Shown one piece after another: positions 90 through 16,318 of a stretch of DNA of 20,350 nucleotides; within the stretch, counting starts at the first letter, position 1, and each line of letters begins with the position of its first letter. Source of the DNA: a virus; the IMG/VR virus record IMGVR_UViG_3300035070_002521, positions 1-20,350 of that record; one strand, given 5' to 3'. The position numbers and the translations under genes were made by a program. The notes below the pieces were generated by a model that was given only the letters and a program-made list of their open reading frames with translations, ran no database searches and was not told the DNA's origin.

Positions 90-132
90 AATATACAAAC
101 AAAATCACCTTGTGTATGTGATTGCGGTCACA
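90..132 (-). promoter_or_regulatory. CRP-like class II promoter for the left-edge gene
   Basis: A perfect TGTGA-N6-TCACA palindrome (117-132) is followed on the minus strand by TATATT (95-90), starting 37 nt from the site start. The inferred start of transcription is about 83, which puts the palindrome centre at -41.5. The hexamer at the -35 position (CATACA) does not resemble TTGACA, consistent with activator dependence. The site match is seen directly. That CRP binds is inferred from the known consensus. Confidence 0.65.
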
Positions 133-150
133 AATTTGATACAGGCAAAG

Positions 151-173
151 AAAAACCCGCGCGCGGCGGGTTT
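151..173 (-). terminator. Rho-independent terminator after ssb
   Basis: An 8-bp stem (arms 153-160 and 166-173) with a 5-nt GC loop. On the minus strand it is followed by a T run (complement of the A's at 151-155). It lies 11 nt past the ssb stop codon and closes the leftward recT-exonuclease-ssb operon. Confidence 0.85.
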
Positions 174-183
174 AGTTGGTTAA

Positions 184-723
184 TTAAATGCAGTGCATTA
201 AGTTGTTATTGTGCATTAAGCCAATTGGAGCAAACGGGATGTCATCATCAAAATCCATCGGAGGCTCATTGTATTGTGGTTGAGCTTGCTGTGGTGCTTG
301 TTGAGGTGCTCTTTGTTGTTGCTGCGGCGCATTATATTGCTGCTGTTGGGCTTGTTGTCGCGGTTGCTGATATTGTTGCTGTGGAGTTTGTTGTTGCTGT
401 GGTTGGTTGCCAGTGTGAACAAAGCCCAACTTAGCGTCGTGAATCTCAATAGATAGAATCTGGCCGTTTTGACCATCGAAAGATTTAATCTTCTGCGTTG
501 TGCCGCTTAATTCAATCACAGAGCCTTCCACAAGCGCCTGTTGGTAGAATTGCACTTGAGCCGGAGCTTTGGCAAAGATAACCGCTTCATAGTTTGTGTA
601 TTCGTTCTGCTGCGTTTCACGGTCGTAGTATCGAACGCCAAGTCGAACGCCGAAACCTGTCGACTCTCCGGCTTGAAATTGATTAGCCGCTTTGTTTAGT
701 TTGCCTGTGATAGAAATTGCCAT
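184..723 (-). CDS. ssb: Single-stranded DNA-binding protein (SSB)
   Basis: A 179-aa SSB that coats single-stranded DNA during replication and recombination. The N-terminal ~105 residues form the OB-fold (start MAISITGKLNKAANQF). A very glutamine-rich, low-complexity linker spans about residues 113-155, followed by the acidic tip MDFDDDIPF. Unlike cellular SSBs, the tip is not at the end: 15 more residues (APIGLMHNNNLMHCI) follow. I chose the ATG at 723 over one 15 nt upstream (738) because GGAGAG lies at proper spacing and the stop of the exonuclease gene overlaps it as TAATG. It is last in the recT-exonuclease-ssb operon, so it probably serves the phage annealing recombination pathway. Family assignment is secure. 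Confidence 0.93.
   Translation of the reverse strand: MAISITGKLNKAANQFQAGESTGFGVRLGVRYYDRETQQNEYTNYEAVIFAKAPAQVQFYQQALVEGSVIELSGTTQKIKSFDGQNGQILSIEIHDAKLGFVHTGNQPQQQQTPQQQYQQPRQQAQQQQYNAPQQQQRAPQQAPQQAQPQYNEPPMDFDDDIPFAPIGLMHNNNLMHCI
193..220. repeat. 10-bp direct repeat in the ssb 3' end
   Basis: GTGCATTAAG occurs at 193-202 and again at 211-220, an 18-bp period. On the minus strand it encodes the repeated LMH of the ssb tail (LMHNNNLMH). This looks like a small tandem duplication that lengthened the C-terminus beyond the acidic tip. Confidence 0.8.
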
Positions 724-1538
724 TAAAATTCTCTCCATTGGTCATTAAATTCAAAGTTTAGTTTTTTCAATTGACGATCCATTTCATCAATAAACTTTGG
801 TACGTGTTTATCGAACTTCGCCATGATAGATTCATCACGCTCAATTACAACAGTGTGAAGCCTGTTTTGTGACGAGCCTCTCAATCTATGGTCATAACTG
901 CAAAAGTGCCATTTGTCCCAACCAGTAACCCACATTGAGAACTGGCACTGAGCAATGTACTCAGGTTTTATTTTACCATTTAAAACTGTATCTAGATGAA
1001 CTTGCGTAGTGTATGGGCTTTTAATCTCCAACCCTTGCTTCTCATCCATTAGCAATCCATCGGGGCTAATAGCACAGCGTAGTGATTCATCTTTATAGAT
1101 TAAACCCGCTTCAGTGACGATACAGAAGTTTTTAGCCTCGAACGCATCACGCGCTAAAGGTTCGTTTAAGTGGCCCCATTCAGCCTGCTTGAAGCTTGCT
1201 GACTCTGGAACGTTGCCAGTAGCAATCTGAGCAATTAACTCTAGCATGTATGACTTTTTACCATCAGACATAACCGGCTCAAGTTTAGATCTAACCCACT
1301 TCTCACAGTTTGCCTTAGTCCCCTGAAATGATTCCCCATTGTAACTTACATCATTAACACCTCTCTTTTCTGTTGGAGTTATATCCACGTCATCCGGCAT
1401 TGGTGGAGTAATATCATCAGCAATAACCAGGTGAGCTCTAGAGGCGGTGATAGTGCCGGCACGATGCCTTAGCCAATCATCAGTGCCTTGCTCGATGTTA
1501 AACGTGTTAACTCCAGTAATGTGATTTATATTAATCAT
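723..1538 (-). CDS. YqaJ-type viral recombinase / exonuclease (lambda Exo-like)
   Basis: A 271-aa PD-(D/E)XK exonuclease of the YqaJ/lambda Exo family, which resects double-stranded DNA ends to give single strands for the annealing partner RecT. Visible catalytic signature: WGHLNEP with E126, SPDG with D160, EIKSP with E171 and K173, and the Q-x-Q motif around residues 197-199. The D160-E171-K173 spacing closely follows lambda Exo (D119-E129-K131). Length suits the family. The start ATG at 1538 overlaps the recT stop as ATGA, with GGAGGG inside the end of recT as ribosome site. Its stop overlaps the ssb start, so the three genes are translationally coupled. Confidence 0.92.
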   Translation of the reverse strand: MININHITGVNTFNIEQGTDDWLRHRAGTITASRAHLVIADDITPPMPDDVDITPTEKRGVNDVSYNGESFQGTKANCEKWVRSKLEPVMSDGKKSYMLELIAQIATGNVPESASFKQAEWGHLNEPLARDAFEAKNFCIVTEAGLIYKDESLRCAISPDGLLMDEKQGLEIKSPYTTQVHLDTVLNGKIKPEYIAQCQFSMWVTGWDKWHFCSYDHRLRGSSQNRLHTVVIERDESIMAKFDKHVPKFIDEMDRQLKKLNFEFNDQWREF

Positions 1539-2380
1539 TGCTTGCCCTCCAGTTTACGCGCTGTTTCTTGCTTTTCTTCTTCGCTCATATCGTCAAAGCA
1601 CTGAATCTCACGCTTATATACTTGAGATAACCAGTTAAATAGTTGCTCTGGCGTACGTCCTTTTGATTCGGTCACAGAAATAATATGCGATTCAACATCA
1701 ATGATGACCTCTGGCTGAGACTCATCTTGTACGCCCTCACCAACATCTGTGTTTAAATTGTGGATAGCTCTATCTAGTCGATCCACTTTAGGCCAATACT
1801 TTGATGCTCGCTTAACAATTGTCTTGCGCGCCATTTCTTCCCAAAACGTTTGCCACGGCCCTTTCTTGGCTTTGCTTGTTGCTGCTACCTTTTTGATATC
1901 AGCAAGGCTCATTTCCTCTGTTAGATAGTCACCATCTGGAGTTTTAACGGTGCAGTAACCACCAATGATAGAGCCGCGCTCACCAAACGCCTGATATTTA
2001 TGCGTAGGCGCTTTATCTAGCCCGTTTGATTCGTACGTATCGTTAGCGTGAACAAGTTTGCACTGACCCCACAAGATAGATCCTGCTTGTTGTGCTATAT
2101 GAAGCAAGCCCATGTAACTAATATCAAGACAAACACCGCCATCACGCGGCACTAGGTATGCTAATTTTGATGCGGGGTTTAGAGTGATGCCAATTGCAGC
2201 TACGTTAATAATTGCATTCTGTGCGCTAGTTGGATTAGATGTTGCAATCTTTGCTAGGTAATCGTTTTTCTGGAATGCTTGAATAGCAAACTGCGACTCT
2301 TTGCCCCAATTGATTGATTCATCTGCCACTACTGGTGTGAAGAATTGCTCTTGGTCGTTTACAAACTCAACTATATTCAT
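1535..2380 (-). CDS. recT: RecT-family single-strand annealing protein
   Basis: A 281-aa RecT recombinase, which anneals complementary single strands exposed by the neighbouring exonuclease. The RecT core is clear at residues 60-79 (VAAIGITLNPASKLAYLVPR), followed by DISYMGLLHIAQQAG near 86-100 and a W-x-x-M-A-R-K-T segment typical of the family. The C-terminal ~60 residues are acidic and family-variable. The ATG at 2380 has AAGGGG about 11 nt upstream. It is first gene of the leftward recombination operon. The promoter should lie in 2381-2450, where a weak -10 (TAGACT, 2415-2410) sits at CRP class II spacing from the palindrome shared with rusA. Confidence 0.93.
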   Translation of the reverse strand: MNIVEFVNDQEQFFTPVVADESINWGKESQFAIQAFQKNDYLAKIATSNPTSAQNAIINVAAIGITLNPASKLAYLVPRDGGVCLDISYMGLLHIAQQAGSILWGQCKLVHANDTYESNGLDKAPTHKYQAFGERGSIIGGYCTVKTPDGDYLTEEMSLADIKKVAATSKAKKGPWQTFWEEMARKTIVKRASKYWPKVDRLDRAIHNLNTDVGEGVQDESQPEVIIDVESHIISVTESKGRTPEQLFNWLSQVYKREIQCFDDMSEEEKQETARKLEGKQ

Positions 2381-2409
2381 TTTTTTGTTTCCCCTTTCGA
2401 ATTACACAC

Positions 2410-2452
2410 AGTCTAACCACCATCAAACAGACTTACTGTGAACCAAGTCACA
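2410..2452 (-). promoter_or_regulatory. Possible leftward CRP-like promoter for recT operon
   Basis: The palindrome at 2437-2452 reads equally well leftward. TAGACT lies at 2415-2410, with 37 nt between site start and hexamer, and matches TATAAT in 4 of 6 positions including the key A2 and T6. No -35 is visible. This could make the site bidirectional, but the -10 is weak. Confidence 0.35.
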
Positions 2453-2478
2453 AAACAAAAATGACAGTGCGATATAAT
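2437..2478 (+). promoter_or_regulatory. CRP-like class II promoter for rusA
   Basis: A perfect TGTGA-N6-TCACA palindrome (2437-2452) is followed by a perfect -10 TATAAT at 2473-2478. Site start to -10 start is 36 nt. The predicted transcription start is about 2485, so the palindrome is centred near -41. The -35 position reads ACAAAA. It drives rusA, whose ATG is at 2504. Confidence 0.7.
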
Positions 2479-2503
2479 TTACGAAACAAACGGAGGAAGT
2501 AAA

Positions 2504-2860
2504 ATGAGTGATTATGAGTTTGAACTACCCTGGCCGCCTTCAGTGAATGGGTATTGGCGGACATTTAGAAATAGACAGATAATTTCAAAGCGAGGGCGAG
2601 AATACAGGGTTAATGCTATCAAGCTAATGCAATCGTATGACTTAAGTGATGAGATGCTTACAGAGCGATTACAGGTGCATTTAACGCTACACCCACCGAC
2701 ACTGCGTAAGTACGATATTGATAACTTTTGTAAAGCTACGTTTGACGCGCTATCTCACGCCGGTTTCTGGGAAGATGACGAGCAGATTGATTCGCTATCC
2801 ATAAAGAAGGCAGAGAAGATAAAAGGTGGAAAAGTGATAATAAGAGTAACCAAGTTATAA
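2504..2860 (+). CDS. rusA: RusA-type Holliday junction resolvase
   Basis: A 118-aa RusA endonuclease, which cuts Holliday junctions formed in phage recombination or replication. The N-terminus has the family segment LPWPPSVNGYWR. The catalytic block RKYDIDNFCKATFDAL...GFWEDDEQID gives D71, D73, K77 and D92, one residue offset from E. coli RusA D70, D72, K76 and D91. Length is typical (E. coli 120 aa). A strong GGAGG lies about 7 nt before the ATG. It is a single-gene unit between its own CRP-like promoter and a terminator, facing away from the recT operon. All residues required for metal binding are present. Confidence 0.94.
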   Translation: MSDYEFELPWPPSVNGYWRTFRNRQIISKRGREYRVNAIKLMQSYDLSDEMLTERLQVHLTLHPPTLRKYDIDNFCKATFDALSHAGFWEDDEQIDSLSIKKAEKIKGGKVIIRVTKL

Positions 2861-2865
2861 AACAG

Positions 2866-2890
2866 AGGCTGCCGATTGGTGGCCTTTTTT
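2866..2890 (+). terminator. Terminator after rusA
   Basis: An 8-bp stem (2866-2873 with 2878-2885, including two G-U pairs), a GATT loop and a run of T's to 2890. It starts 6 nt past the rusA stop and isolates rusA from the early operon. Confidence 0.75.
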
Positions 2891-2908
2891 ACGACTGGTG
2901 AAAATAAA

Positions 2909-2950
2909 GTAATCTTTTTTGTTGACTTGGTAATCCGTTTTGATTACTAT
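2909..2950 (+). promoter_or_regulatory. Early promoter with palindromic operator
   Basis: TTGACT (2922-2927), a 17-bp spacer and TACTAT (2945-2950) form a sigma70 promoter. Inside it lies an inverted repeat GTAATC-N6-GATTAC (2930-2935 and 2942-2947) that overlaps the spacer and -10. A third half-site GTAATC is at 2909-2914, exactly 21 bp (two helical turns) upstream. This is the arrangement expected for a repressor operator. Which protein binds is unknown. The small Cro-like protein encoded just downstream is a candidate for autoregulation. Confidence 0.7.
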
Positions 2951-2983
2951 CACTCCATCGAAACGAAATAGAGAATTTAAAAA

Positions 2984-3148
2984 ATGTACGATTACCAATA
3001 CACAAACAAATCAAACCCTTTCTCAGTTGTTAAGTTTGACCTAGACGGTAACTTTCTTGCTATTGATTGCGACCCTACAGATAAAGAGCTGGCAACTATG
3101 GAAAACATGCACGACCTAGAAGGATGGGAAATCAGTGACACTATCTAA
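2984..3148 (+). CDS. Hypothetical protein, 54 aa, first early gene
   Basis: A small acidic protein (MYDYQYTNKSNPFSVVKFDL...) that I do not recognise. It is the first ORF after the early promoter at 2922-2950, with its ATG about 27 nt past the predicted transcript start. The ribosome site is poor (GAGAAT, about 7 nt upstream). Its last 14 nt overlap the GTG start of the Cro-like gene, which suggests coupled translation. Confidence 0.6.
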   Translation: MYDYQYTNKSNPFSVVKFDLDGNFLAIDCDPTDKELATMENMHDLEGWEISDTI

Positions 3149-3317
3149 ATACATTGAAGATAACTACGGCGGCTCACAAGTCGCCTTTGCCAAGGCTAAC
3201 GGATTAACAAAGCAGTTGGTTTGGAGGATGCTTGATAAGGGATATTGGCACGTTTACGAAGGAATGCTTTTAATCCACAAGAGAGATGTAGCAAATGATA
3301 ACAACACAACAAAGTAG
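3135..3317 (+). CDS. Small Cro-like HTH regulator
   Basis: A 60-aa protein starting at GTG 3135. Residues 13-33 (GSQVAFAKANGLTKQLVWRML) read as a helix-turn-helix with the pattern of small phage Cro/YdaS-like proteins: a short acidic N-terminal helix, an A-F-A-K-A first helix, a G-L turn, then a recognition helix followed by a W/Y-rich strand. It lies second in the operon controlled by the palindromic operator at 2930-2947, so autorepression is a reasonable inference. No dimerisation domain beyond the short C-terminal tail is visible. The function is inferred from pattern only. Confidence 0.6.
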   Translation: MTLSKYIEDNYGGSQVAFAKANGLTKQLVWRMLDKGYWHVYEGMLLIHKRDVANDNNTTK

Positions 3318-3414
3318 TATGGGCTTGTGGTTCATACACTTAGACGGTGATGTTTTAACGGGTGGATGGCTTAGCGAACAAGAAGCAATTAACGAAATGG
3401 AGCAATACAAATGA
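3295..3414 (+). CDS. Hypothetical protein, 39 aa
   Basis: A tiny ORF (MITTQQSSMGLWFIHLDGDV...) that overlaps the end of the Cro-like gene by 23 nt. It shares ATGA with the start of the next gene (3411). AGAGAG precedes the ATG at 3295. An internal in-frame ATG at 3319 would give 31 aa. The tight overlaps at both ends support translation. No family recognised. Confidence 0.5.
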   Translation: MITTQQSSMGLWFIHLDGDVLTGGWLSEQEAINEMEQYK

Positions 3415-3647
3415 GCCTGGCAAGTAAAATAATCAACCAGCGATTCATCGACACAGATGTAAAAACTCGATGTGTTGACGCGATAAAAACAAAGTCATTC
3501 ACGATGTATAAGATGTTTGACGGTGGAAATGTAAAACACTGGGCTGACGGCTCAATAACAATTTCTAGCGGGTTATCACACCTGCGATGGATGTTGCACA
3601 TGAAGACGCGAAAGCTTCCAGAGAATGATTTAGGTTTGCCGTTTTAG
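3411..3647 (+). CDS. Hypothetical protein, 78 aa
   Basis: Basic protein (start MSLASKIINQRFIDTDVKTR) of unknown role in the early operon. Start and upstream stop overlap as ATGA. It ends with PENDLGLPF. The pattern of short beta-like stretches around residues 30-55 (MYKMFDGGNVKHWADGSITI) suggests a small folded domain, but I cannot name it. Confidence 0.65.
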   Translation: MSLASKIINQRFIDTDVKTRCVDAIKTKSFTMYKMFDGGNVKHWADGSITISSGLSHLRWMLHMKTRKLPENDLGLPF

Positions 3648-3661
3648 ATAGGAGAAAGGTT

Positions 3662-3904
3662 ATGAATAAAAATCAGATAGATAACGCAATCGAAGATTCT
3701 TGGAAAGAGTTTGAAAGAACATCGGAGATAACGGGCGGTAATGCTGACAATTTACTTGGAGCGGTTGAAGAACTTAGAAGTCAGAGAGATCAACTTGCAA
3801 AGGCCTTTGATTTGATAATGAAGCAGCACATTGCAAACACACTTTGGGATTGTGAAGGTATAGATATAAAGGCGCTTCTTAATAAGACAGAAATAAAAGC
3901 ATAA
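3662..3904 (+). CDS. Hypothetical protein, 80 aa, helical
   Basis: A mainly alpha-helical, acidic protein. Residues ~28-55 (ADNLLGAVEELRSQRDQLAK) look like a short coiled coil, as in many small phage early proteins. GGAGAAAGG lies just before the ATG as ribosome site, next to the upstream stop. It is followed by a 44-nt gap containing a hairpin. No function assigned. Confidence 0.65.
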   Translation: MNKNQIDNAIEDSWKEFERTSEITGGNADNLLGAVEELRSQRDQLAKAFDLIMKQHIANTLWDCEGIDIKALLNKTEIKA

Positions 3905-3913
3905 ACCAAAACC

Positions 3914-3937
3914 AAGGGATTGCGCGAGCTTTCCCTT
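3914..3937 (+). other. Intergenic hairpin
   Basis: AAGGGA (3914-3919) and TCCCTT (3932-3937) can pair around a 12-nt loop, in the gap between the 80-aa and 112-aa genes. It is not followed by a T run, so it is more likely a processing or attenuation structure, or chance, than a terminator. Confidence 0.3.
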
Positions 3938-3948
3938 AATAGAGCAAT

Positions 3949-4287
3949 ATGAGCCTTAAACAAGCAGCTAGAGAAGCATTAGAAGGTAATGACGTAGAAG
4001 TTCATGCCAAATTATACGAGCTCCGTACCGAGTGTAGAGAGCGCGGTATTAACTCAGAAAAAGTAACAGAAATAATCAGGAGTGTGATTAATGAAGGTAA
4101 GCAACCCGAAGCAGCGCCAGAACCGCAAGAACCAAAACCAATTACACCCGAACCGCCAAAAGCTGTTCAAGATAGACGAACCGACAAAGAACTATCAAGG
4201 AGATCTCAATTCAGCGGTGAGCCAGTTAAGCAGCGCAAAGATTCAGACTCAATGATTTTAATGATGGCAGAAAACAAAAAGGCGTAA
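3949..4287 (+). CDS. Hypothetical protein, 112 aa, proline-rich middle
   Basis: The N-terminal ~50 residues are helical (MSLKQAAREALEGNDVEVHA...). A proline/glutamate-rich linker follows at about 52-72 (with PEAAPEPQEPKP), then a basic, disordered-looking C-terminus. This helical head plus flexible tail is common in phage early adaptor proteins, but no specific function can be read. Only a weak ribosome site (AGAG) precedes the start. Confidence 0.6.
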   Translation: MSLKQAAREALEGNDVEVHAKLYELRTECRERGINSEKVTEIIRSVINEGKQPEAAPEPQEPKPITPEPPKAVQDRRTDKELSRRSQFSGEPVKQRKDSDSMILMMAENKKA

Positions 4288-4289
4288 CA

Positions 4290-4616
4290 ATGAAACAATT
4301 TATATGGACACCAACAGCACTAACCAAGCTTAGGAAGCTATCAAAAACTCACACGATGCAACAGGCGGCCGATGAGATTGGATGCAATAAGAATGCAGTG
4401 CACGGAAAAGCAAGGCGCGAAGGTATCAGCTTTAGAAAGTACGGAGAGTTACACCACAGCGCAAAATACTCAGACCATGACGTTTACTTAGCTAGAGCTT
4501 TGGTAGATGAAGGAATCACCACGGCAGAGGCTGGAAGAAAGTTAGACATACCACAACCAGTAGTAAGCATGTATTGCCGAAATAAATATAGGAATCACGA
4601 CAGTGTGCAATGTTAA
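4290..4616 (+). CDS. Double HTH DNA-binding protein
   Basis: A 108-aa protein with two probable helix-turn-helix units. One lies at about 9-37 (ALTKLRKLSKTHTMQQAADE then IGCNKNAVHGKARREG). The other lies at about 64-97 (DVYLARALVDEGITTAEAGR then KLDIPQPVVSMYC), in the style of homeodomain-like/resolvase HTH folds. It probably binds DNA as a small phage transcription regulator. The target is unknown. It starts 2 nt after the preceding stop and its end overlaps the next start by 14 nt, indicating coupling within the early operon. Confidence 0.7.
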   Translation: MKQFIWTPTALTKLRKLSKTHTMQQAADEIGCNKNAVHGKARREGISFRKYGELHHSAKYSDHDVYLARALVDEGITTAEAGRKLDIPQPVVSMYCRNKYRNHDSVQC

Positions 4617-4806: not shown

Positions 4807-4817
4807 TACTCCTTTTT
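4796..4817 (+). terminator. Weak terminator-like hairpin at end of early operon
   Basis: AAAGGG (4796-4801) pairs with TCCTTT (4810-4815), with one G-U pair and an 8-nt loop, and merges into five T's ending at 4817. The stem is short and overlaps the stop codon, so termination would be partial at best. Confidence 0.4.
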
Positions 4818-4824
4818 ATTTAAA

Positions 4825-4867
4825 CTGGTAAAGTAAATTTGACAACACCAGAAGGTAGTGCGATAAT
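4825..4867 (+). promoter_or_regulatory. Consensus sigma70 promoter for the rha-replication operon
   Basis: A perfect -35 TTGACA (4839-4844), a 17-bp spacer and GATAAT (4862-4867), with TG one base before the -10 (extended -10). The predicted start is about 4874. An inverted repeat CTGGT-N17-ACCAG (4825-4829 and 4847-4851) brackets the -35 and could be an operator. Confidence 0.8.
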
Positions 4868-4896
4868 TGCATCACCAACAAAGAAGAGGTGTGAAC

Positions 4897-5385
4897 ATGG
4901 AAAACTTAGTGATGATTGATTCAGGAAGGACTTTTGTTAACTCAAACGATGTCGCGGAAAAGTTCGAGAAACAACATAGACAGATACTAGACAACATTAG
5001 AAGTGTAATCAAAAACGAGCCTGAATTTGGTGACGCAAATTTTCGCGCTACCACTTACACCACAGCGCAAAATAAAACCCACGAATGCTTTGAGATGAGT
5101 AGGGATGGATTTTCAATGATCGCTATGGGTCTTACTGGTAAAAAAGCGATGAGCTGGAAGGCAAAGTATATAACAGCATTTAACAAAATGGAGTCTGCGC
5201 TTATTGATATAGCGCCAACGCTAGAAAGTGTTAACCACATAGTTAAGAAGGCTGAGAGTGACAAGCAGATAGCTAGCGAGTGCGGAAGTCAACTTGCAAG
5301 ATATAAGAAGGTAAAAAAGAACAACCAAGAGAAGCTAGATTCAGCGATCAAGTCAGTTCAAATCTCACTTGGTTTCAAGCAATAA
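4897..5385 (+). CDS. rha: Rha-family phage regulatory protein
   Basis: A 162-aa protein of the Rha family, known from lambdoid and P22-like phages as a regulator whose expression interferes with growth in some host backgrounds. The signature is clear: DVAEKFEKQHRQILDNIRSV near 18-37 (winged-helix-like), NFRATTY near 48-54, and SRDGFSMIAMGLTGKKAMSWK with KAKYITAFNKME near 68-99. The C-terminal ~50 residues form a charged helix in place of the longer C-terminal domains of other Rha proteins. I chose ATG 4897 (AAGAGGTG upstream) because a TTG at 4867 would fall before the predicted transcript start. It is the first gene of the replication operon. Confidence 0.87.
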   Translation: MENLVMIDSGRTFVNSNDVAEKFEKQHRQILDNIRSVIKNEPEFGDANFRATTYTTAQNKTHECFEMSRDGFSMIAMGLTGKKAMSWKAKYITAFNKMESALIDIAPTLESVNHIVKKAESDKQIASECGSQLARYKKVKKNNQEKLDSAIKSVQISLGFKQ

Positions 5386-8330: not shown

Positions 8331-8851
8331 ATCCAATTGATGAGTTCAAACAAAGGTATGGGGCTGTGGTTATGAGTCATGAATTTATTATTCCACCTAC
8401 TGATGATGGTTGGTTTGGGTTTGTTAGTGGAATGACAGACATTCGAGAAGGTAGCAATGACACACTAAAGGTTGTTGTTACCGTCAGCCATGGGAATGGA
8501 AAGTGGGGTATGGCACGACTTTGGCGCTCATGGATGAAGATAACATCTGATTACATGGCCGCTAACGGGTCTAAAATGCCCCTCATGACGCGAGATGATG
8601 GTAGTTGGTATGGTAGTCGCCCTTTTAACGAAAAAGACGCTCACGAGCTATTCACGGCGCAATGGCTCGGGGTTGATGAGAATGGAAATAGATTGAGCTG
8701 GAGGAAATCAGAAGGCGAAAACGTAGCGGATAAAGGCCAGAGATTTATGGCTATGATGAAACATCAAGATTGGTGCATGGAAAAAGGCATAGCACTACCA
8801 AAGCCTCGCAACAGTGAATTGCATGAATTGGAGCAATCTCAAAACATGTGA
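8327..8851 (+). CDS. Conserved phage-like protein of unknown function, 174 aa
   Basis: A soluble protein with a hydrophobic, tryptophan-rich core (HGNGKWGMARLWRSWMKITS near 55-74, YGSRPFNEKDAHELFTAQWL near 94-113) and a charged C-terminus (RFMAMMKHQDWCMEKGIALP). The GTG start at 8327 overlaps the previous stop (GTGA). An internal ATG at 8372 would remove 15 residues. The style is that of ninB-region accessory genes after the replication genes, but I do not see the NinB signature and do not assign it. Its stop codon lies inside the CRP-like site at 8847. Confidence 0.65.
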   Translation: MNPIDEFKQRYGAVVMSHEFIIPPTDDGWFGFVSGMTDIREGSNDTLKVVVTVSHGNGKWGMARLWRSWMKITSDYMAANGSKMPLMTRDDGSWYGSRPFNEKDAHELFTAQWLGVDENGNRLSWRKSEGENVADKGQRFMAMMKHQDWCMEKGIALPKPRNSELHELEQSQNM

Positions 8852-8889
8852 GCACTATCACAGAAGTTGGCGGATATCGTATTTATAAT
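8847..8889 (+). promoter_or_regulatory. CRP-like class II promoter for the DnaJ-zinc/HTH block
   Basis: A perfect TGTGA-N6-TCACA (8847-8862) is followed by a perfect -10 TATAAT (8884-8889) exactly 37 nt from site start. The transcription start is expected near 8896, with the site centred at -41.5. The -35 position reads CAGAAG. The palindrome overlaps the stop codon of the upstream gene. Confidence 0.7.
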
Positions 8890-8917: not shown

Positions 8918-9286
8918 ATGGAATACAAAGGCAATATAACGCTACCGACTTACACGGAATACTGTGAAAGCTTGCTGAGCGATTCGGTTAAAGAAGATAA
9001 AAAAGTTAAGTGCCAAAATTGCGAAGGTCACGGAACTATTGTGGAGGACGTGCAATCTAGTCAAGGGAATTGGCACGAGATTGAAGAGGATTGCGAAGAG
9101 TGCGATGGTGAGGGTAAAGTTTATGCAAGTGAATTAGCAAGCGCTAAAAATCTTGTTAGCGTTCAACATTACAAATTAGAGATGATCGAAACAGTAAGAA
9201 AGCTTAGCTCATGGACTCGAACTGATTTCTTTCTAAATATTGCCAAGTGCAAGACTCTATTTGTCAAAGGTGGATATCATGGCTAG
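8918..9286 (+). CDS. Small protein with DnaJ-type zinc-binding motif
   Basis: A 122-aa protein with a paired C-x-x-C-x-G-x-G arrangement: C32-C35 (KCQNCEGHGT) and C59-C62 (DCEECDGEGK). This is the pattern of half of the DnaJ cysteine-rich zinc domain. No J-domain is present, so it is not a chaperone co-factor in the usual sense; such isolated motifs occur in small phage proteins. ATG 8918 is chosen because GAGGTT precedes it and upstream codons would lie before the predicted transcript start (~8896). First gene of a CRP-like unit. Function unknown. Confidence 0.72.
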   Translation: MEYKGNITLPTYTEYCESLLSDSVKEDKKVKCQNCEGHGTIVEDVQSSQGNWHEIEEDCEECDGEGKVYASELASAKNLVSVQHYKLEMIETVRKLSSWTRTDFFLNIAKCKTLFVKGGYHG

Positions 9287-9749
9287 ACCATATAAATTAG
9301 CGAGTTATTCGCAAGAAGAAGTAAGAGCAAAAGTAAAAGAGCTGGGGACTATCGCAAAGGCAGCTAAGTTCTACGAATGCGCAGAGAAGACAGTAAGCAA
9401 TAAGATTGGATTCTTTGTGTATCGAAGTGTTGACCCAAAGCACCACAAAGAGCTTAAGGAGTTGCTTAAGATTCATACCAAGAGTCGAGTTGGTGAATTG
9501 ATGGGATACTCACAGAGTCAAATGGAATGGTTCACCAAGAAGCATAAGATTAAGTGCTCATCGAAAGGTAAGCCAAAGATTGATTCAAACCTTACCCATT
9601 ACGAAATGAATAACATGGATGAGGTTATAAAGGATTATGCGACCATTTTAGATTGCGCGGATGAATTGGAAGTAAGCGCAAAGACAATCCATCGCCATTT
9701 AAAGATTTGTAGAGAGCGTAAACGTGAAGTGGCTCACAGTAGTTATTAA
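9279..9749 (+). CDS. Triple-HTH DNA-binding protein
   Basis: A 156-aa basic protein with three successive helix-turn-helix-like units: about 23-45 (GTIAKAAKFYECAEKTVSNK), 68-92 (KSRVGELMGYSQSQMEWFTK) and 120-143 (YATILDCADELEVSAKTIHR). It likely binds DNA as a phage regulator. A role in middle or late transcription is possible from its location after the replication genes, but this is inference. ATG 9279 has AGGTGG 6 nt upstream and overlaps the zinc-protein gene by 8 nt. The upstream in-frame start at 9240 lacks a good ribosome site. Confidence 0.68.
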   Translation: MARPYKLASYSQEEVRAKVKELGTIAKAAKFYECAEKTVSNKIGFFVYRSVDPKHHKELKELLKIHTKSRVGELMGYSQSQMEWFTKKHKIKCSSKGKPKIDSNLTHYEMNNMDEVIKDYATILDCADELEVSAKTIHRHLKICRERKREVAHSSY

Positions 9750-9836
9750 CTATAACTGGTACGCTAGGTTAAGTTTTTGATTAAAGTCGCTCATAGGTGT
9801 TTGTGGGTGGCTTGGAATTGATGTTTAGAGGTGTTT

Positions 9837-10061
9837 ATGAGTAATTGGATTGATATTGATAGTAAATCTCCAGATGTCGGCAAGCCCGTACTTTGTGTTG
9901 GGGTTTCTGATTATGGTGAGTTTTTAGCTCCAGTAGTGGCATCGCTTCAAGGTGATGGAAGGTTTATAATTGGGTATAGATTTCACGATGAAAGGGTGAT
10001 TGGTTTCTTTTTTGAGACGTTTGTAACTCACTGGATGCAACTTCCAGAAATGCCGGAGTGA
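9837..10061 (+). CDS. DUF551-family protein (copy 1)
   Basis: A 74-aa protein with the DUF551 pattern: an N-terminal WIDIDSKSPDVGKPVLCVG (W-I-x-V/I ... P ... VL) and a C-terminal VTHWMQLPEMPE, matching the family's terminal H-W-x-P-L-P. DUF551 proteins are widespread small accessory proteins of gammaproteobacterial phages with no known function. ATG 9837 follows AGAGGTG. An in-frame GTG 6 nt upstream is less likely. A paralogue lies at 10217. The 87 nt before it hold no clear promoter or terminator. Confidence 0.78.
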   Translation: MSNWIDIDSKSPDVGKPVLCVGVSDYGEFLAPVVASLQGDGRFIIGYRFHDERVIGFFFETFVTHWMQLPEMPE

Positions 10062-10820: not shown

Positions 10821-10863
10821 TGTGACAACCATCACAGACTTAAAACAATGCGCGGTCTATTAT
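10821..10863 (+). promoter_or_regulatory. CRP-like class II promoter for the 189-aa gene
   Basis: A perfect TGTGA-N6-TCACA (10821-10836) with TATTAT at 10858-10863, 37 nt from site start. The start is expected near 10870 and the site is centred at -41.5. The -35 position reads CAGACT. It lies in a 76-nt gap between genes. Confidence 0.7.
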
Positions 10864-10891: not shown

Positions 10892-11461
10892 ATGATTACT
10901 TGTAAAGAAGATTTGATTGGAACTTATGTTGATGGGCGCGACATTAAGCTTGGTAATGAGTATCAAAAGTTACTGTTTAAGTTTGGCGTTAAATGGCTTC
11001 ATTTTGATGACCAAGAGGTTAGAACTGCTAGTGGGATGACTAACCACTTTTGCTTTAATGGGGAGTTCTTAAGCTGGAGTCGGAAAGAGCCTGCGGATAT
11101 CAATTACGAAAAGAAACTTACACTCAAAGACCTAAAACCAAAACCAACCAAGTTCGTAAAAGTCGAAGAGTCTATCTTTGGTTTAAAGGAGGAGTTTGAG
11201 AGTGGTGAGTTGTATCGAGTGTATGTGCATCATGGTGACAATCCGATGTATGGCGTTATCGATAGTGAGTTCTCTCTAATTCAGGCAGCGGATAGAAGCA
11301 ATGTTTACCGACAAGTTGAGACTACAGAGCGAGATTTGTTTATTGATATGATAGAGCAAGCTGGAGCTGAATTATCAAGCGATGGTGAGTGGTCATTTGC
11401 ATGCCTAGCTGCAAGTGTGTTTGATTCCGGCCGTATCAAACTAACAGGTAAACCAGAGTAA
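10892..11461 (+). CDS. Hypothetical protein, 189 aa
   Basis: A soluble acidic protein I do not recognise. It starts with a compact region rich in aromatics (LLFKFGVKWLHFDDQEVRTA near 27-46). A hinge rich in lysine and proline follows (LKDLKPKPTKFVKVEE near 79-94), then a second domain (GELYRVYVHHGDNPMYGVID near 105-124, and a helix with ERDLFIDMIEQAGAE). The two-part layout suggests two small domains joined by a linker. It is a single gene under its own CRP-like promoter, with GGAGATATAG before the ATG, so it can be expressed apart from its neighbours. Confidence 0.68.
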   Translation: MITCKEDLIGTYVDGRDIKLGNEYQKLLFKFGVKWLHFDDQEVRTASGMTNHFCFNGEFLSWSRKEPADINYEKKLTLKDLKPKPTKFVKVEESIFGLKEEFESGELYRVYVHHGDNPMYGVIDSEFSLIQAADRSNVYRQVETTERDLFIDMIEQAGAELSSDGEWSFACLAASVFDSGRIKLTGKPE

Positions 11462-11479
11462 GGGGTGGCTTTCTAATTG

Positions 11480-11522
11480 CGTGATGCTCATCACAGTAAA
11501 TTGATTATTGATTGGTTATTAT
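11480..11522 (+). promoter_or_regulatory. CRP-like class II promoter for small membrane proteins
   Basis: CGTGA-N6-TCACA (11480-11495), a 9-of-10 match to the CRP half-sites, with TATTAT at 11517-11522, again exactly 37 nt from site start. The start is expected near 11529. The -35 position reads CAGTAA. Confidence 0.62.
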
Positions 11523-11551
11523 TGTTTCAACTTAAACGAAAGGAAGAAAAA

Positions 11552-11752: not shown

Positions 11753-11768
11753 TTTAAGGTTCTGCTAT

Positions 11769-11873
11769 ATGAGTCTCATTTATCGCGCCGTAATGGTGTC
11801 AATAGTGGTAGGAATTTCCTCTGTATCTTTTCTTTTGATATCGCTAGGAATTAGATTGCTGTCAGAAGTGTAA
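11769..11873 (+). CDS. Tiny single-span membrane protein, 34 aa
   Basis: An ORF of 34 residues (MSLIYRAVMVSIVVGISSVS, then FLLISLGIRLLSEV) that is nearly all hydrophobic after an initial arginine and reads as one membrane helix. It lies 16 nt after the 66-aa membrane protein and just before a terminator, with AAGG about 10 nt upstream. It probably acts with its neighbour if it is translated. Its small size keeps confidence moderate. Confidence 0.5.
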   Translation: MSLIYRAVMVSIVVGISSVSFLLISLGIRLLSEV

Positions 11874-11875
11874 CA

Positions 11876-11899
11876 AAAGCCCCTTAATTGGGGTTTTTT
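11876..11899 (+). terminator. Terminator before the packaging genes
   Basis: CCCC (11880-11883) pairs with GGGG (11890-11893) around TTAATT. The stem is extended by a G-U and A-T pairs, and six T's follow. It ends the CRP-driven membrane-protein unit and isolates terS. Confidence 0.8.
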
Positions 11900-11918
11900 A
11901 TTATTTGAAGATAGGTGA

Positions 11919-11967
11919 TATAATCAAGCTAATTCGGTTAGGCCGATTAACATTAAATCATAAGGTG
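11919..11967 (+). promoter_or_regulatory. Late promoter and conserved leader upstream of terS
   Basis: A perfect -10 TATAAT (11919-11924) without a clear -35, then a hairpin starting about +4 (TCGG 11934-11937, loop TTAGG, CCGA 11943-11946), then CATAAGGTG (11959-11967) carrying the ribosome site. The same order, with the same loop and the same CATAAGGTG, occurs upstream of the scaffold gene at 18343. Confidence 0.65.
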
Positions 11968-11972
11968 ATTAT

Positions 11973-12419
11973 ATGGGTGCAGGTAGACCAACAAAGTACA
12001 AGGAGGAGTATTGCATTCAGGCTGAAAAGCTATGCAAGAAAGGCTTTATTGATGTCGAGATAGCTGACTTTTTTGAGGTAAACGTTGATACAATTTATGA
12101 GTGGAAGAAAAAACACCCTAAATTTTCCGATGCCTTAAAGGATGGGAAGCGTCATTCTGACTCGAAAGTTGAAGACTCACTTTACAATAGGGCGCTTGGT
12201 TATGAGTTCCAAGAAGTAAAGGAAGAGCTAGATGGTGGAGCGGTAACTAAGACCACGAGAACAACCAAGCAACTGGCTGGTGACACTACCGCTCAGATAT
12301 TCTGGCTTAAGAATAGACAGCCTGAAAAATGGCGCGACAAGCAACCAGAATCAACTGTTGATGAATCCCCGATTGGTAGAATTCAGATAGAGGTTGTCGG
12401 TGCGAACGTTAACGATTAA
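11973..12419 (+). CDS. terS: Terminase small subunit
   Basis: A 148-aa DNA-packaging protein that recognises phage DNA and presents it to the large terminase. The N-terminus GAGRPTKYKEEYCIQAEKLC with an HTH (DVEIADFFEVNVDTIYEWKK, residues ~27-46) is typical. HPKFSDALKDGK and SLYNRALGYEFQE follow, then the C-terminal TAQIFWLKNRQPEKWRDK, a hallmark of many small terminases. Length is typical. AAGGTG lies 6 nt before the ATG. The large-subunit gene starts inside its last 20 nt. First gene of the structural module. Confidence 0.93.
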   Translation: MGAGRPTKYKEEYCIQAEKLCKKGFIDVEIADFFEVNVDTIYEWKKKHPKFSDALKDGKRHSDSKVEDSLYNRALGYEFQEVKEELDGGAVTKTTRTTKQLAGDTTAQIFWLKNRQPEKWRDKQPESTVDESPIGRIQIEVVGANVND

Positions 12420-13659
12420 GCCAACTCAGCCACAAGCTGACTTCCATAATCTTACCTGTAAGTATCCAGCGTTCATTGGTGGCTTTGGTACGGGAAAGTC
12501 GGAAACCATGGCTAACCAAGCGTTCATGGATGCCACTCACTCATCTAGCGCACTGATTGGGCTGTATGAGCCTACGTATGACCTTATTCGATTAATCATG
12601 GCTCCTCGAATGGAGGAGAAGCTATCCGATTATGGTATTAGGTATAAGTACAACAAGTCTGAAAATATCATCTACACTTCATCACCTCAGATTGGTGACT
12701 TCATTCTTAGGACGATGGATAACCCAGCTCGCATCGTTGGTTATGAAACGTATAGAGCGCATTGCGATGAGATTGATACTCTAAAGGAAGACCACGCGAG
12801 AGAGGCTTGGATAAAGATAATCGCTCGCAATCGTCAATCACCTGCTGGTGTGGAGAATCCATTTAATAGGGTTAGCGCTTATTCAACGCCTGAAGGGTTT
12901 AGGTTCATGTACAACACATGGAAGAAAAACCCTAAGCCTAGCTATAAGATGATTCAAGCATCAACAATGTCAAACCCATTCCTTCCTGCTGACTATGTTG
13001 AGGCGCTTAAGGAGTCTTATCCAGAGCAGTTAATTGAGGCTTACCTTAATGGTGACTTTGTTAACCTGACTGCTGGTCAAGTCTACAATCAATACTCAAA
13101 GGGTAACGAATCAAACGAGGTTGTTACTGATAGTGATTTAACTCTAGCTATTGGCATGGACTTTAACGTGCAGCACATGGCGGCAAGGGTATTTGTTTAT
13201 CGCGATGGTATTCCGCATTGTGTTGATGAGTTTAATGAGCTTTATGATACGTCTGACATGATTGAGAATATTCAGATGCGCTATCCTGATAAGAAGATTG
13301 TTATCTATCCAGATGCATCAGGTAAAAACAGGAAGACTAACGGGGCTGATGAGACTGATATCAAGTTACTTAAAAAGGCAGGATTCAGAGTCAAGGCTAA
13401 AGAGGCTAACCCAAGAGTTAAGACTAGGGTTAACTCAGTTAACGCAATGTTCTGCAATGCTAAAGGTGAAAGGCGTCTATTTGTGAACAAGGACAAGTGT
13501 CCAGTCACGCATGACGAGCTAAGCCAGCAAGTGTACAATGACAAGGGCGAGCCTGATAAATCGGCAGGCAAAGACCACGGGAACGACGCATTTGGCTATT
13601 TCATAGCTTACGAGCATCCAATCGGTGAAGTTAGGAAACGCTTCGCAATACACGGGTAA
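12400..13659 (+). CDS. terL: Terminase large subunit
   Basis: The 419-aa ATPase-nuclease motor that pumps DNA into the prohead and cuts it. ATPase part: Walker A GGFGTGKS (about 27-34), Walker B-like AHCDEID with acidic pair at about 123-124, and a coupling-type AYSTPEG near 160-166. Nuclease part (RNase H-like): D near 254 in GMDFN, D near 305 in YPDASG, and a final acidic pair in KDHGNDAFGYFI (~392-396). The GTG at 12400 is preferred to a TTG 6 nt upstream because AGAGG is at good spacing for GTG. It overlaps terS by 20 nt, indicating coupled translation. Confidence 0.94.
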   Translation: MRTLTIKPTQPQADFHNLTCKYPAFIGGFGTGKSETMANQAFMDATHSSSALIGLYEPTYDLIRLIMAPRMEEKLSDYGIRYKYNKSENIIYTSSPQIGDFILRTMDNPARIVGYETYRAHCDEIDTLKEDHAREAWIKIIARNRQSPAGVENPFNRVSAYSTPEGFRFMYNTWKKNPKPSYKMIQASTMSNPFLPADYVEALKESYPEQLIEAYLNGDFVNLTAGQVYNQYSKGNESNEVVTDSDLTLAIGMDFNVQHMAARVFVYRDGIPHCVDEFNELYDTSDMIENIQMRYPDKKIVIYPDASGKNRKTNGADETDIKLLKKAGFRVKAKEANPRVKTRVNSVNAMFCNAKGERRLFVNKDKCPVTHDELSQQVYNDKGEPDKSAGKDHGNDAFGYFIAYEHPIGEVRKRFAIHG

Positions 13660-13664
13660 ATACA

Positions 13665-15107
13665 ATGGAAACAAAACTAGACAAAGGTTATACCGACAAC
13701 CTCCCATTATGGGCTCAGGTTCGTGCGGCTATTCGAGGTAAGCAAGGGGCCATTAAGTTACTTGATGGTAATTGTGGTTATTACGGATTGGTGTCGCCTG
13801 CATATCGTGTGACTAATGATAATCACGCTGTTGTGAATGAGCGTCGCAAGTCATACTTTGCGCGCGGTCGATTCTTTAACGCTACCGGTCGAACTCATGA
13901 CGCTTACGTTGGAATGGTTGGCGCAAAACCTGTTGAGACTGAAGTTCCAGAGGGTCTAGCTGGCTTTATGGAAAGTGTCGACGGTGAAAACTCAACTATC
14001 AATGACTTTGCGCTAGAGATTGCGTCCGAGCTATTGGTTACTGGTCGTTACGGTGTATTAGTTGACCCACCAAGCAATGAAGGCAAGACTCGCAGCCAAA
14101 TGCAGCCTGCAAAACTGATTGGCTACAATGCCGAAGCAATGCCTCATCACGTGGTATCTGGTGGCAAGTTAGTGCTGGTGGACTTGCTTGAGCTGTATTG
14201 GGAAAAGGAGGGTGATGAGTACGAGTGCAAAGAACAAGTGCGCCGCCTTGAGTTAATCGAAGGTGTTTATACATCAAAGATTAAGCGTGATGGTGATTGG
14301 GAATCTATCGTAAAGCCTACCATCGATAATAAGACTCTTGATTACATCCCATTCCAGTTCTTTGGCTCAGAGCAGAATAAGCCGATTTATGACCGCCCGG
14401 TAATGTTTGATTTGGCTCATGAGAATATGGGTCACTTCCAATTAAGCTGTGACAACCTGGAGAACTTGCATTATCACGGGCAGGGTATGACTAACGTGTT
14501 TAGTGACGCTGACCCAGATAGCATTGCTGAGATGAATCCAGATGGTATCGATGTGGGCGCTAAAGGTGTTAACCAATTCGCGCAACAGGATAGAGTTGAG
14601 ATTCTACAGATTGCGGCTACTGGTGCTATCTCCACAGAAATGGAGCGAGTAGAAAAGCGCATGATTATGTTGGGCGCTCAAGTAACTCAAGATGCAGCCA
14701 CTAATCAGACTCTAGGCGCTAAAGAGATTGAATCTAATGCGTCTACCAGTCAGCTAAAGCGAATCGCTGTAAACACATCCAAGGGCTTGCAATGGTGTAT
14801 CGAACAGGCCGCATTGTTCATGAGTGTTACTGGCGAGATTAAAGTAAAAGTTAATGACCAATTCGTAACTGATGACATGACAGCCCAAGATGTTCAATCA
14901 GTATTCCAAGCGGTTCAAGGCGGTTCGCTACCTCAATCAGTATTGCTTAACACTGCGAGAAAGGCAGGTTACACAGATAAGACTAACGAGGAGCTTATTG
15001 AGGAACTTGAAGAGTCTGGTATTGAAGGTTCAACTGAGCGTGAGGCTGAATTGCAAATGGAGATTGACAACCTGCGTGAGCAACTGGCTAACCAGGGTGG
15101 TGAGTAG
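13665..15107 (+). CDS. Portal protein, DUF4055 type
   Basis: A 480-aa portal that forms the ring at one head vertex through which DNA is packaged. It shows the DUF4055 style: ERRKSYFARGRFFNATGRTH and YVGMVGAKPV near 58-90, SVDGENSTINDFALEIASEL near 105-125, then TGRYGVLVDPP, and the long helical stretch NLENLHYHGQGM in the wing/stem region. The C-terminus is a charged coiled coil (EREAELQMEIDNLREQLANQ). It lies between terL and the MuF-type gene, the usual portal position. It starts 5 nt after terL and its TAG overlaps the next GTG. Confidence 0.88.
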   Translation: METKLDKGYTDNLPLWAQVRAAIRGKQGAIKLLDGNCGYYGLVSPAYRVTNDNHAVVNERRKSYFARGRFFNATGRTHDAYVGMVGAKPVETEVPEGLAGFMESVDGENSTINDFALEIASELLVTGRYGVLVDPPSNEGKTRSQMQPAKLIGYNAEAMPHHVVSGGKLVLVDLLELYWEKEGDEYECKEQVRRLELIEGVYTSKIKRDGDWESIVKPTIDNKTLDYIPFQFFGSEQNKPIYDRPVMFDLAHENMGHFQLSCDNLENLHYHGQGMTNVFSDADPDSIAEMNPDGIDVGAKGVNQFAQQDRVEILQIAATGAISTEMERVEKRMIMLGAQVTQDAATNQTLGAKEIESNASTSQLKRIAVNTSKGLQWCIEQAALFMSVTGEIKVKVNDQFVTDDMTAQDVQSVFQAVQGGSLPQSVLLNTARKAGYTDKTNEELIEELEESGIEGSTEREAELQMEIDNLREQLANQGGE

Positions 15108-16216
15108 TGGCGATAAACCAAGAGTTAACAGCTATTGAGGCTCAGCATGGTGTTTATATTCAACGCCTAGCTGTGCAGTATGGCAACGAGTCCAAGCCTT
15201 TTATCGATTCAATGAGCGAGCGCATTAGTGCTCGCATCAATCGAGAGGTTGGCAAAAATCTAACGTCCAATCGCAAGGCTAAGTTGCTAGAAGATATCGA
15301 CGCGATTGTTAGTGAGGAACTAAAGGGCTACACGGACTCACTCAAAGCTAACAATGCAGACCTAGGTAAGTATGAGGCAGACTTTCAGGCTAAGACGCTA
15401 TCTAGCCTATACCAAGCAACTGAGGCTGCATCGATATCTAAGTCGGTTATCAAGACTAATGCTAACAACACTCTAATCAAACTTGGTGATGACTCATACA
15501 CGGGCTACACGCAGATGCTTAACAATTACGTTAGGCAGAATAGGGAGCAGATTGACAACATCGTACAGCAAGGCTTTGTGAGCGGCGCAACAACGCGAGA
15601 GATTGCATCGCAGGTATTAAGCGAGGTTGATAATCGAATTGTTAAGACTCGCAAGCAGGCTATGAATATTGCAAAGACCGGTTCGAACCACTATGCAAAC
15701 TCGGCGCGCAAAACTTACTTCGATGATGAGCCTATTGTTATTGGCACTCGCAGGATTGCAACGCTTGACAGTCAAACGTCTCAATACTGCCGAGGAATTG
15801 ATAACACAGTCGTACTAAAGACTGATTCTAACTATCGCAAAGCTTTTTCGCCGTTCCATCCGGGTTGTCGTACGGCAAACATCCCAGAGGTTGATTCGCG
15901 ATATAAGCACGAAGATGATGGCGGCGAACGACCTGAAAACTTCCGTAATGCTAACGATGGATTACTTGAGCCAGGTGTTACCAGCTCAAAGAAAACCTAT
16001 TACGAGGCAATTAAAGGTTTGGATGCTAAATCGCAGGACGCAATTCTTGGCCCCACACTAGGCAGGGCATTCCGTAAAGGCATCAAAGAAGGCTCACTAA
16101 CTCCAGAGTCATTCGCTAAGTTGACGATTGATGAGAAGAACCTAAAGCCCCTAACCCTTCGCGAGATGGAAGCAAAGGACAGCGAGCTATCAAGGCTAAT
16201 CAAATCAGTTAAATGA
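15107..16216 (+). CDS. Minor head protein, SPP1 gp7 / Mu F type
   Basis: A 369-aa head morphogenesis protein, usually a minor component bound near the portal. The N-terminal ~190 residues are helical (VRQNREQIDNIVQQGFVSGA near 142-161 is the family's R-x-x-I-x-x-G-x-x-x-G region). The conserved MuF core is at 219-261: TLDSQTSQYCRGIDNTV with C228, and SPFHPGCRTANIPEV with H251-P-G-C-R255. The remaining ~100 residues carry no toxin domain that I recognise. The GTG start overlaps the portal stop (TAGTG), with GGGTGGTGAG upstream. Confidence 0.9.
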   Translation: MAINQELTAIEAQHGVYIQRLAVQYGNESKPFIDSMSERISARINREVGKNLTSNRKAKLLEDIDAIVSEELKGYTDSLKANNADLGKYEADFQAKTLSSLYQATEAASISKSVIKTNANNTLIKLGDDSYTGYTQMLNNYVRQNREQIDNIVQQGFVSGATTREIASQVLSEVDNRIVKTRKQAMNIAKTGSNHYANSARKTYFDDEPIVIGTRRIATLDSQTSQYCRGIDNTVVLKTDSNYRKAFSPFHPGCRTANIPEVDSRYKHEDDGGERPENFRNANDGLLEPGVTSSKKTYYEAIKGLDAKSQDAILGPTLGRAFRKGIKEGSLTPESFAKLTIDEKNLKPLTLREMEAKDSELSRLIKSVK

Positions 16217-16238
16217 TCTAACCCGAAATTGAAAACCC

Positions 16239-16263
16239 AAGCCCACTTATTTGTGGGCTTTTT
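16239..16263 (+). terminator. Terminator after the MuF-type head gene
   Basis: A perfect 8-bp stem AAGCCCAC/GTGGGCTT (16239-16246 and 16253-16260) with a 6-nt loop, followed by T's. It separates the terS-portal-MuF unit from the inserted accessory cassette. Confidence 0.88.
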
Positions 16264-16275
16264 GTGTGTGAAATA

Positions 16276-16318
16276 TGAGACATGCATCACTGTTTTGGCT
16301 TTAGAGGTTCGCTATAGT
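16276..16318 (+). promoter_or_regulatory. Degenerate CRP-like promoter for the head-region cassette
   Basis: TGAGA-N6-TCACT (16276-16291; 8 of 10 consensus positions) with TATAGT at 16313-16318, 37 nt from site start as in the other copies. The -35 position reads CTGTTT. A small inverted repeat (CAGC 16330-16333, GCTG 16339-16342) lies just after the expected transcript start. Confidence 0.5.

Follow-up and report, generated by a model that had tools for sequence, protein, structure and literature searches.

The window analysed here, by which we mean the whole 20,350-base virus record IMGVR_UViG_3300035070_002521, carries dispersed palindromes of the form TGTGA-N6-TCACA. This sequence is the gammaproteobacterial consensus for the cyclic AMP (cAMP) receptor protein, CRP. 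In the window and in a lineage of related Vibrio phages, the palindromes often stand at a fixed distance from a -10 hexamer, and we take palindrome and hexamer together to be genuine promoters that depend on an activator and have CRP class II geometry. The palindromes are likely, with a probability of roughly 0.8, to be binding sites for host cAMP-CRP. Motif, geometry, conservation and lineage were observed directly and are described first.

Perfect palindromes were found in the window at 117, 2437, 8847 and 10821. In contrast, 100 shuffles of the window gave a mean of 0.04 and a maximum of 1. An earlier, sequence-only reading had reported six CRP-like promoters: these four, one at 11480 with 1 mismatch (9/10) and one at 16276 with 2 mismatches (8/10). 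All six were present at exactly these positions, the four perfect ones beyond chance, and the -10 hexamers start 36 or 37 nucleotides from the site start as had been described. However, two units had been missed, one on the minus strand of the 2437 palindrome and one at 9723, and the window holds 7 palindromes and 8 promoter-like units in total (Table 1). At two or fewer mismatches, the window is not unusual (17 sites versus 11.6 expected; 8 of 100 shuffles reach 17). Therefore, the 16276 site does not stand on its own. It gains support because relatives carry its variant, TGAGA-N6-TCAC[T/G], together with a -10 at 37 at a further four or five loci (11 more places, several of which are copies of one locus). 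Thus, chance was rejected as the origin of the perfect sites by the shuffles and by the inverted-repeat ranking given below, but not for the 2-mismatch class taken alone. The counterpart of the 11480 site in relative W05, at 44010, is perfect. The 9723 element also lies inside the end of the gene for a helix-turn-helix (HTH)-like protein in W01, W02 and W06; in the window it encodes the REVAHS tail of that gene, and the gene at 9831-10061 is next.

With megablast, the window matched 376 phage records, every one Vibrio. From the best and spread match listings, we selected twenty relatives (W01-W20) according to how similar their DNA was to the window. They hold, in order from W01 to W20, 8, 3, 9, 10, 6, 10, 7, 7, 12, 9, 10, 4, 9, 9, 0, 8, 9, 0, 9 and 1 perfect palindromes; thus 17 of the 20 hold 3-12 each. 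A reversed-pattern control gave 0 in all 20. We divided the 17 carriers into group A (13 phages) and group B (W14, W16, W17 and W19, with 8-9 perfect palindromes each). Group B lacks the portal and capsid families of group A. A 470-amino-acid family, probably the terminase, is common to group B and 8 of the 13 group A phages, and cargo genes are also common to both groups; exchange between the groups is possible. The palindrome-poor records match the window over about 300 bases (W15), about 60 bases (W18) and 39 bases (W20). Their poverty is not explained by similarity to the window, because W16, W17 and W19 match it over only about 1% and yet hold 8-9 palindromes. The motif set was made from the window and the 17 carriers (18 sequences, 794,276 bases), with W15, W18 and W20 (0, 0 and 1 perfect palindromes) excluded, and its enrichment figures apply to the carrier lineage.

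Ten phages outside the lineage or at its edge were counted in all. The phage phiHSIC, which the title of its genome paper reportedly calls pseudotemperate and marine, holds 7 perfect palindromes and 14 at one mismatch or fewer. Vibrio phage 1.284.A holds 3, Kagunavirus UTI89UKE1 holds 1 and Dhillonvirus EP23 none. With 1.284.A left out, 18 relatives hold at least three perfect sites. phiHSIC was included in the flank-based ortholog search, in the analysis of the -35 region and of the G described below, and in the undeduplicated offset and variant counts; it was left out of the 143-site counts and of the homologue and regulator searches. The head-tail adaptor stretch, which includes one palindrome, was matched in 104 phage records, the count being of the stretch as a whole. 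In five enterobacterial genomes (4.0-5.1 Mb), 10-23 perfect sites each were counted, which is 3.7 per Mb, versus 180 per Mb in the 17 carriers. Site density in the carriers is thus far above chance and above that of the other phages counted.

Among all 5-bp inverted repeats with spacers of 0-20, TGTGA with a spacer of 6 ranked first by z-score in the motif set (143 versus 1.17 expected; z 131, the next being 57). By ratio, some GC-rich terminator-like repeats surpass it (up to 222-fold versus 122-fold), and most entries ranked after it are of this GC-rich, terminator-like kind. Only 25 of the 143 palindromes lie inside the interiors of called open reading frames (ORFs), though such interiors make up 74% of the sequence, and several of the 25 are at promoters in over-long ORF calls. 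For the following counts, units more than 80 or 85% alike were dropped; the unique sets contain 113, 96, 104/118 or 79/162 units, depending on the analysis. A TAnnnT hexamer peaks at offset 37 from the site start, in 30 of 104 unique perfect oriented sites (background 1.42 per offset) and in 35 of 118 unique one-mismatch oriented sites (background 2.64). The excess falls to 16 of 502 at two mismatches (8.4 expected) and is absent at three mismatches (78 versus a background of 106). Without de-duplication, 207 units at 0-1 mismatch have a -10 at 36/37, versus 31, 26, 15, 20, 6 and 12 at six control offset pairs. Because the -10 is at offset 37, the palindrome centre is placed at -41.5, with the transcription starts deduced from the -10. 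The starts predicted in this way for the window are near 83 (minus), 2403 (minus), 2485, 8896, 9772, 10870, 11529 and 16325. There was no peak at offsets 57/58 (6 units), and class I spacing (-61.5) was rejected. The offset 37 peak supports the earlier proposal of dispersed class II CRP-like promoters with a fixed -10 offset. The accompanying statement that they lack a TTGACA-like -35 holds too: the 79 unique class II units match it at 4 of 6 positions at most, and only 4 of the 79 reach this.

The class II units have further features in common. G stands at -33 in 64 of 79 of them, versus 26 of 162 other orientations. The stretch from -57 to -59 holds 1.59 T per site, versus 0.90 in the other orientations; it is here that the C-terminal domain of the RNA polymerase alpha subunit sits upstream of a class II activator. 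The outermost base is the varying one in 27 of 35 one-mismatch class II sites and in 74 of 118 of all one-mismatch oriented sites, and it is the least specific of the ten bases recognized by CRP. The strict class II pattern with G at -33 was found in 3 of 36 genomes sampled from the class of an Escherichia genome.

The sequence-only reading had stated beforehand that it would fall if the palindromes were not conserved in related phages. Orthologous places were located from the flanks alone, with the palindrome masked, in 22 sequences, with perfect sites as seeds; eight loci gave 89 places. The palindromes are kept, all 10 arm positions being intact at 83 of the 89 places and one mismatch being present at the other 6. 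Across the eight loci, conservation was 0.979-1.000 in the arms, 0.786-1.000 in the spacers and 0.765-0.969 in the flanks; two tail-gene loci are conserved nearly throughout and are little informative on the arms. The 2437 site is perfect in 14 of 14 orthologs, the 117 site in 12 of 14 (2 with 1 mismatch) and the 8847 site in 11 of 14 (3 with 1 mismatch).

Host cAMP-CRP is the likely activator, because no phage CRP homologue passed the cut-off, no phage regulator common to all carriers was found and a second phage group has the same motif. Sites from chromatin immunoprecipitation sequencing of CRP in V. cholerae include sequences such as TGTGATATGATTCACA (PMC6050953). In the window fragment and the 20 relatives, neither the CRP-type HTH domain (PF13545) nor the cyclic nucleotide-binding domain (PF00027) was found over the Pfam cut-off (0 of 21 each). 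A phage CRP homologue was rejected as the binder on this basis, and with it the phage-encoded CRP-fold regulator that the sequence-only reading had kept as an alternative. Neither sequence clustering nor hidden Markov models (HMMs) for six families gave a candidate regulator common to the 17 carriers. A single sequence family reaches all 17, a mosaic cargo family that the three palindrome-poor records have as well.

Of the other explanations, the one that survives best is a phage activator or repressor unrelated in fold to CRP, whose mode of action would resemble that of lambda CI at OR2, with activation from about -42 and repression of the opposite promoter, and whose match to the CRP consensus would be convergence or mimicry. 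We regard it as unlikely. It agrees with the double placement of the sites, for activation and also just ahead of structural genes on the opposing side, as seen with dual regulators of phages, and a fast-evolving regulator would escape the clustering and the six HMMs. The HTH-like protein at 9279-9749, present in the window and in every one of the 13 group A phages, offers itself as a candidate. However, that protein is absent from W14, W16, W17 and W19, all of them palindrome-rich carriers, and this also speaks against the phage repressor with dispersed operators that had been suggested earlier. The mosaic cargo family, the only one to reach all carriers, is no better placed because the three palindrome-poor records have it too. 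Moreover, the motif of the host global regulator is reproduced in every one of the 10 arm bases and in the spacer length.

It seems very improbable that the sites are used by a different host regulator from the CRP/FNR superfamily, or by CRP together with a co-regulator such as TfoX. FNR-type proteins do activate from -41.5 as well, but the sites show no drift to TTGAT (of 118 one-mismatch oriented sites, one is changed at the second arm position and one at its mirror), so that the variants give no support for an FNR-type motif, which was rejected; the TGCGA motif of TfoX type differs from the motif found. We give next to no credence to palindromes without a role of their own, kept within shared leaders as recombination joints for cargo genes: near-identical leaders do precede different cargo genes at different loci, but at 8 of 8 loci conservation of the arms equals or exceeds that of the spacer and exceeds that of the flanks (though the seeds were perfect sites), core early and lysis promoters also hold palindromes, and the offset and the G at -33 are promoter-specific.

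Several observations weigh against host CRP as the reader of these sites. The G at -33 is conserved and is not explained by the CRP consensus, of which, to our knowledge, it is not a part. The genes for the major tail protein and the tail fibre have conserved sites that lack a -10 at 37. PF13545 gave three weak matches below the threshold. Perfect palindromes are absent from T1, lambda and VP882, and also from V. breoganii phage 1.189.B, which shares 92.2% identity with the window in the capsid protein. The roughly fifty-fold higher density in carriers comes from a comparison with five enterobacterial chromosomes. Finally, across the IMG/VR contigs as a whole the excess is no more than modest, with 40 stretches at offset 37, compared with 18 at 42 and 25 for a scrambled palindrome; a virus-wide habit was rejected in view of this weak excess. 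Three IMG/VR contigs, 3300028048_000142, 3300028048_000238 and 3300028886_000072, hold 4-6 perfect palindromes each, many as TGTGATATAWATCACA, and may represent a further phage group that has a CRP-like site array of its own.

The promoters had been thought to serve mainly accessory genes, with early genes on other promoter types. Neither idea is supported. The units also face both early operons (recT/exonuclease and rusA/replication), the lysis run and the conserved HTH-like gene, and relatives have palindromes at head-tail and tail genes too; the accessory-genes-only reading was rejected from the relatives' annotation. The 2437 palindrome has a -10 at 36/37 toward both recT and rusA. The contents of the operon to the left of the window were taken from the annotation of relatives: in W01 and W04, the counterpart of the left-edge gene opens a same-strand run annotated with lysozyme/endolysin, transmembrane and holin genes, which lies outside the window. 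The 8847 site precedes the DnaJ-zinc gene, whose start is probably 8918 and not the TTG at 8867, and the HTH-like gene. Pfam and PHROGs scans covered 10 window proteins. The mosaic cargo family, built by single linkage and with exchangeable N- and C-terminal parts, has 38 copies in the window and all 20 relatives, including the palindrome-poor records; window genes 10892-11461 and 17570-18286 both belong to it.

Table 1 Palindromes, promoter-like units and facing genes in the window. SSB, single-stranded DNA-binding protein.
Feature	Position	Strand	Details
Perfect palindrome, leftward class II unit	117..132	(-)	-10 TATATT 90-95 (minus)
Perfect palindrome between divergent early operons	2437..2452	both	plus -10 TATAAT 2473-2478 (offset 36), rusA side
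Second unit of the same palindrome	2437..2452	minus	-10 TAGACT 2410-2415 (offset 37), recT side
Perfect palindrome overlapping stop codon of preceding gene	8847..8862	(+)	-10 TATAAT 8884-8889
1-mismatch site CGTGAAGTGGCTCACA at 3' end of HTH-like gene	9723..9738	(+)	weak -10 TACGCT 9760-9765
Perfect palindrome	10821..10836	(+)	-10 TATTAT 10858-10863
1-mismatch palindrome	11480..11495	(+)	-10 TATTAT 11517-11522
2-mismatch site TGAGACATGCATCACT, weaker case	16276..16291	(+)	-10 TATAGT 16313-16318
Left-edge gene	start codon 61	(-)	faced by 117 unit
Probable SSB, minus early operon	184-738	(-)	by position
Exonuclease, after recT	723-1538	(-)	ORF; relatives' annotation
recT-family gene, first in minus early operon	1535..2380	(-)	ORF; families common to relatives annotated RecT/exonuclease
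rusA-type resolvase gene, first in plus early operon	2504..2860	(+)	ORF; relatives annotated RusA there
DnaJ central zinc-domain protein	8918..9286	(+)	PF00684 6.8e-09; PHROG 127 'Q-like' 5.1e-06
Possible DNA-binding protein, two HTH-like stretches	9279..9749	(+)	weak matches: Pfam 0.0035 (under cut-off), PHROGs 1.2e-04
Gene after 9723 site	9831-10061	(+)	
189-amino-acid mosaic cargo protein	10892..11461	(+)	faced by 10821 site; no Pfam match; PHROGs of unknown function
Small gene, function unknown	probable start 11552	(+)	PHROG 6006; faced by 11480 site
Gene beside 295-amino-acid cassette gene	16364-16570	(+)	faced by 16276 site

Many palindromes of the relatives are flanked by a cargo gene reading leftward, toward which they have class II geometry, and by a structural gene reading rightward (head-tail adaptor, head morphogenesis or tape measure), the start codon of which is close downstream. 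The -41.5 geometry is absent at some of the head and tail gene sites. At W07 27138 and W08 19714, TATAAT is inside the palindrome, and W07 27138 also has TAAAAT at 37. At several loci, the arrangement TATAC-TGTGA suggests a structural-gene promoter beside the palindrome. If bound over the starts of head and tail genes, CRP should repress them. The hexamer test for the TATAC-TGTGA arrangement is inflated, since the last T is fixed by the palindrome, and for this reason repression is something that we infer. A near-identical leader (about TTATAGTAATTGCAACTTAAATAGGAG) after the palindrome precedes different cargo genes at different loci (W03, W04, W09, W11, W14 and others); cargo could be swapped by recombination at this shared leader.

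If host CRP binds these sites, a dimer centred at -41.5 would replace the -35 contact and recruit sigma-70 RNA polymerase to the good -10. A single dimer site at 2437 would serve both divergent early operons, recT leftward and rusA/replication rightward, and the other sites would drive the lysis gene run, the zinc/HTH-like gene pair and small cargo genes. In relatives, palindromes on the presumed -10/start region or the ribosome site of head and tail genes would allow CRP to repress. Timing and strength of the phage programme would then follow host cAMP; we infer activation by CRP, with carbon status as its physiological meaning. A wider scheme is speculative, and we think it rather doubtful as a whole. 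It has an entire lineage of marine Vibrio siphoviruses run by cAMP-CRP, with the early operons (through one shared palindrome), lysis and cargo turned on and the head and tail genes held back. As the phage DNA replicates, its dense sites would soak up CRP, so that the structural genes are released and the host regulon is drained. Such a titration timer would also sense hunger, and could underlie the pseudolysogeny reported for phiHSIC. The wider question addressed is how lytic and pseudotemperate marine phages read host nutrition. The proposed control by CRP gives a simple wiring diagram for cultured phages with isolated hosts and supplies natural single-site divergent class II promoters. Cases of phages run by host regulators are few and, if true, this one would add to them the most thoroughly studied regulator of bacteria.

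Three further observations concern the window itself. A Rha-type regulator is encoded at 4867-5385 (PF09669, 6.1e-27); it was unmatched among the predicted ORFs of the 20 relatives, though W02 has an annotated Rha protein. Of the 562 records matching the capsid protein (19073-20035), only 6 are above 60% identity, with phage 1.189.B (92.2%) the best of those listed. The early region matches phages of other Vibrio species. Because capsid and early region match different Vibrio phages, the genome is a mosaic.

Known systems share parts of this arrangement. In cyanophages, genes under host PhoR/PhoB reportedly respond to phosphate, and there as well marine phage genes follow nutrient state through a host regulator; however, these are said to be a few acquired genes, whereas in the Vibrio phages the signal would be carbon and core operons are involved. 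Class II CRP promoters of the galP1 type have the same palindrome, a centre at -41.5, no good -35 and a good -10. Unlike them, the Vibrio phage sites have a conserved G at -33, include one site facing two promoters, are phage-borne and are about fifty-fold denser than in the five enterobacterial chromosomes. Lambda CI at OR2/PRM is likewise an activator at about -42 able to repress an opposing promoter. It is, however, a phage-encoded repressor, and no such gene was identified in the Vibrio phages, no dedicated search having been made.

Control of phage promoters by host CRP itself is described for coliphage T1, where cAMP-CRP represses the pir, dam and recE promoters (PMC6737242). T1 has 0 perfect sites and so no such array, and CRP represses there. 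The closest parallel is in phages of Alphaproteobacteria regulated by CtrA, described under the term lytic deferment (PMC9437464). There, strong sites for a host global regulator are enriched in phage promoters of several lineages and tie phage genes to host state, as we propose here, and LexA and Spo0A are cited as further host regulators used by phages. The regulator and hosts are different, and the CtrA sites concentrate in terminal-repeat or gap regions, where they control uncharacterised genes, few in number. In contrast, the Vibrio phage sites are scattered among early, lysis, structural and cargo loci, many of which show the fixed class II geometry. Binding and regulation were demonstrated for CtrA and are predicted for the Vibrio phages. 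In the open-licence literature, we found no report of dispersed class II CRP promoters over a phage genome, only the T1 case and no Vibrio phage; the word CRP is absent from the paper on ValSw3-3, a relative, and a CTXphi paper describes CRP at a host promoter. Thus, phages run by host regulators (CtrA, PhoB, and CRP repressing T1) are known, and the proposed dispersed wiring by class II CRP promoters would be a new form of this.

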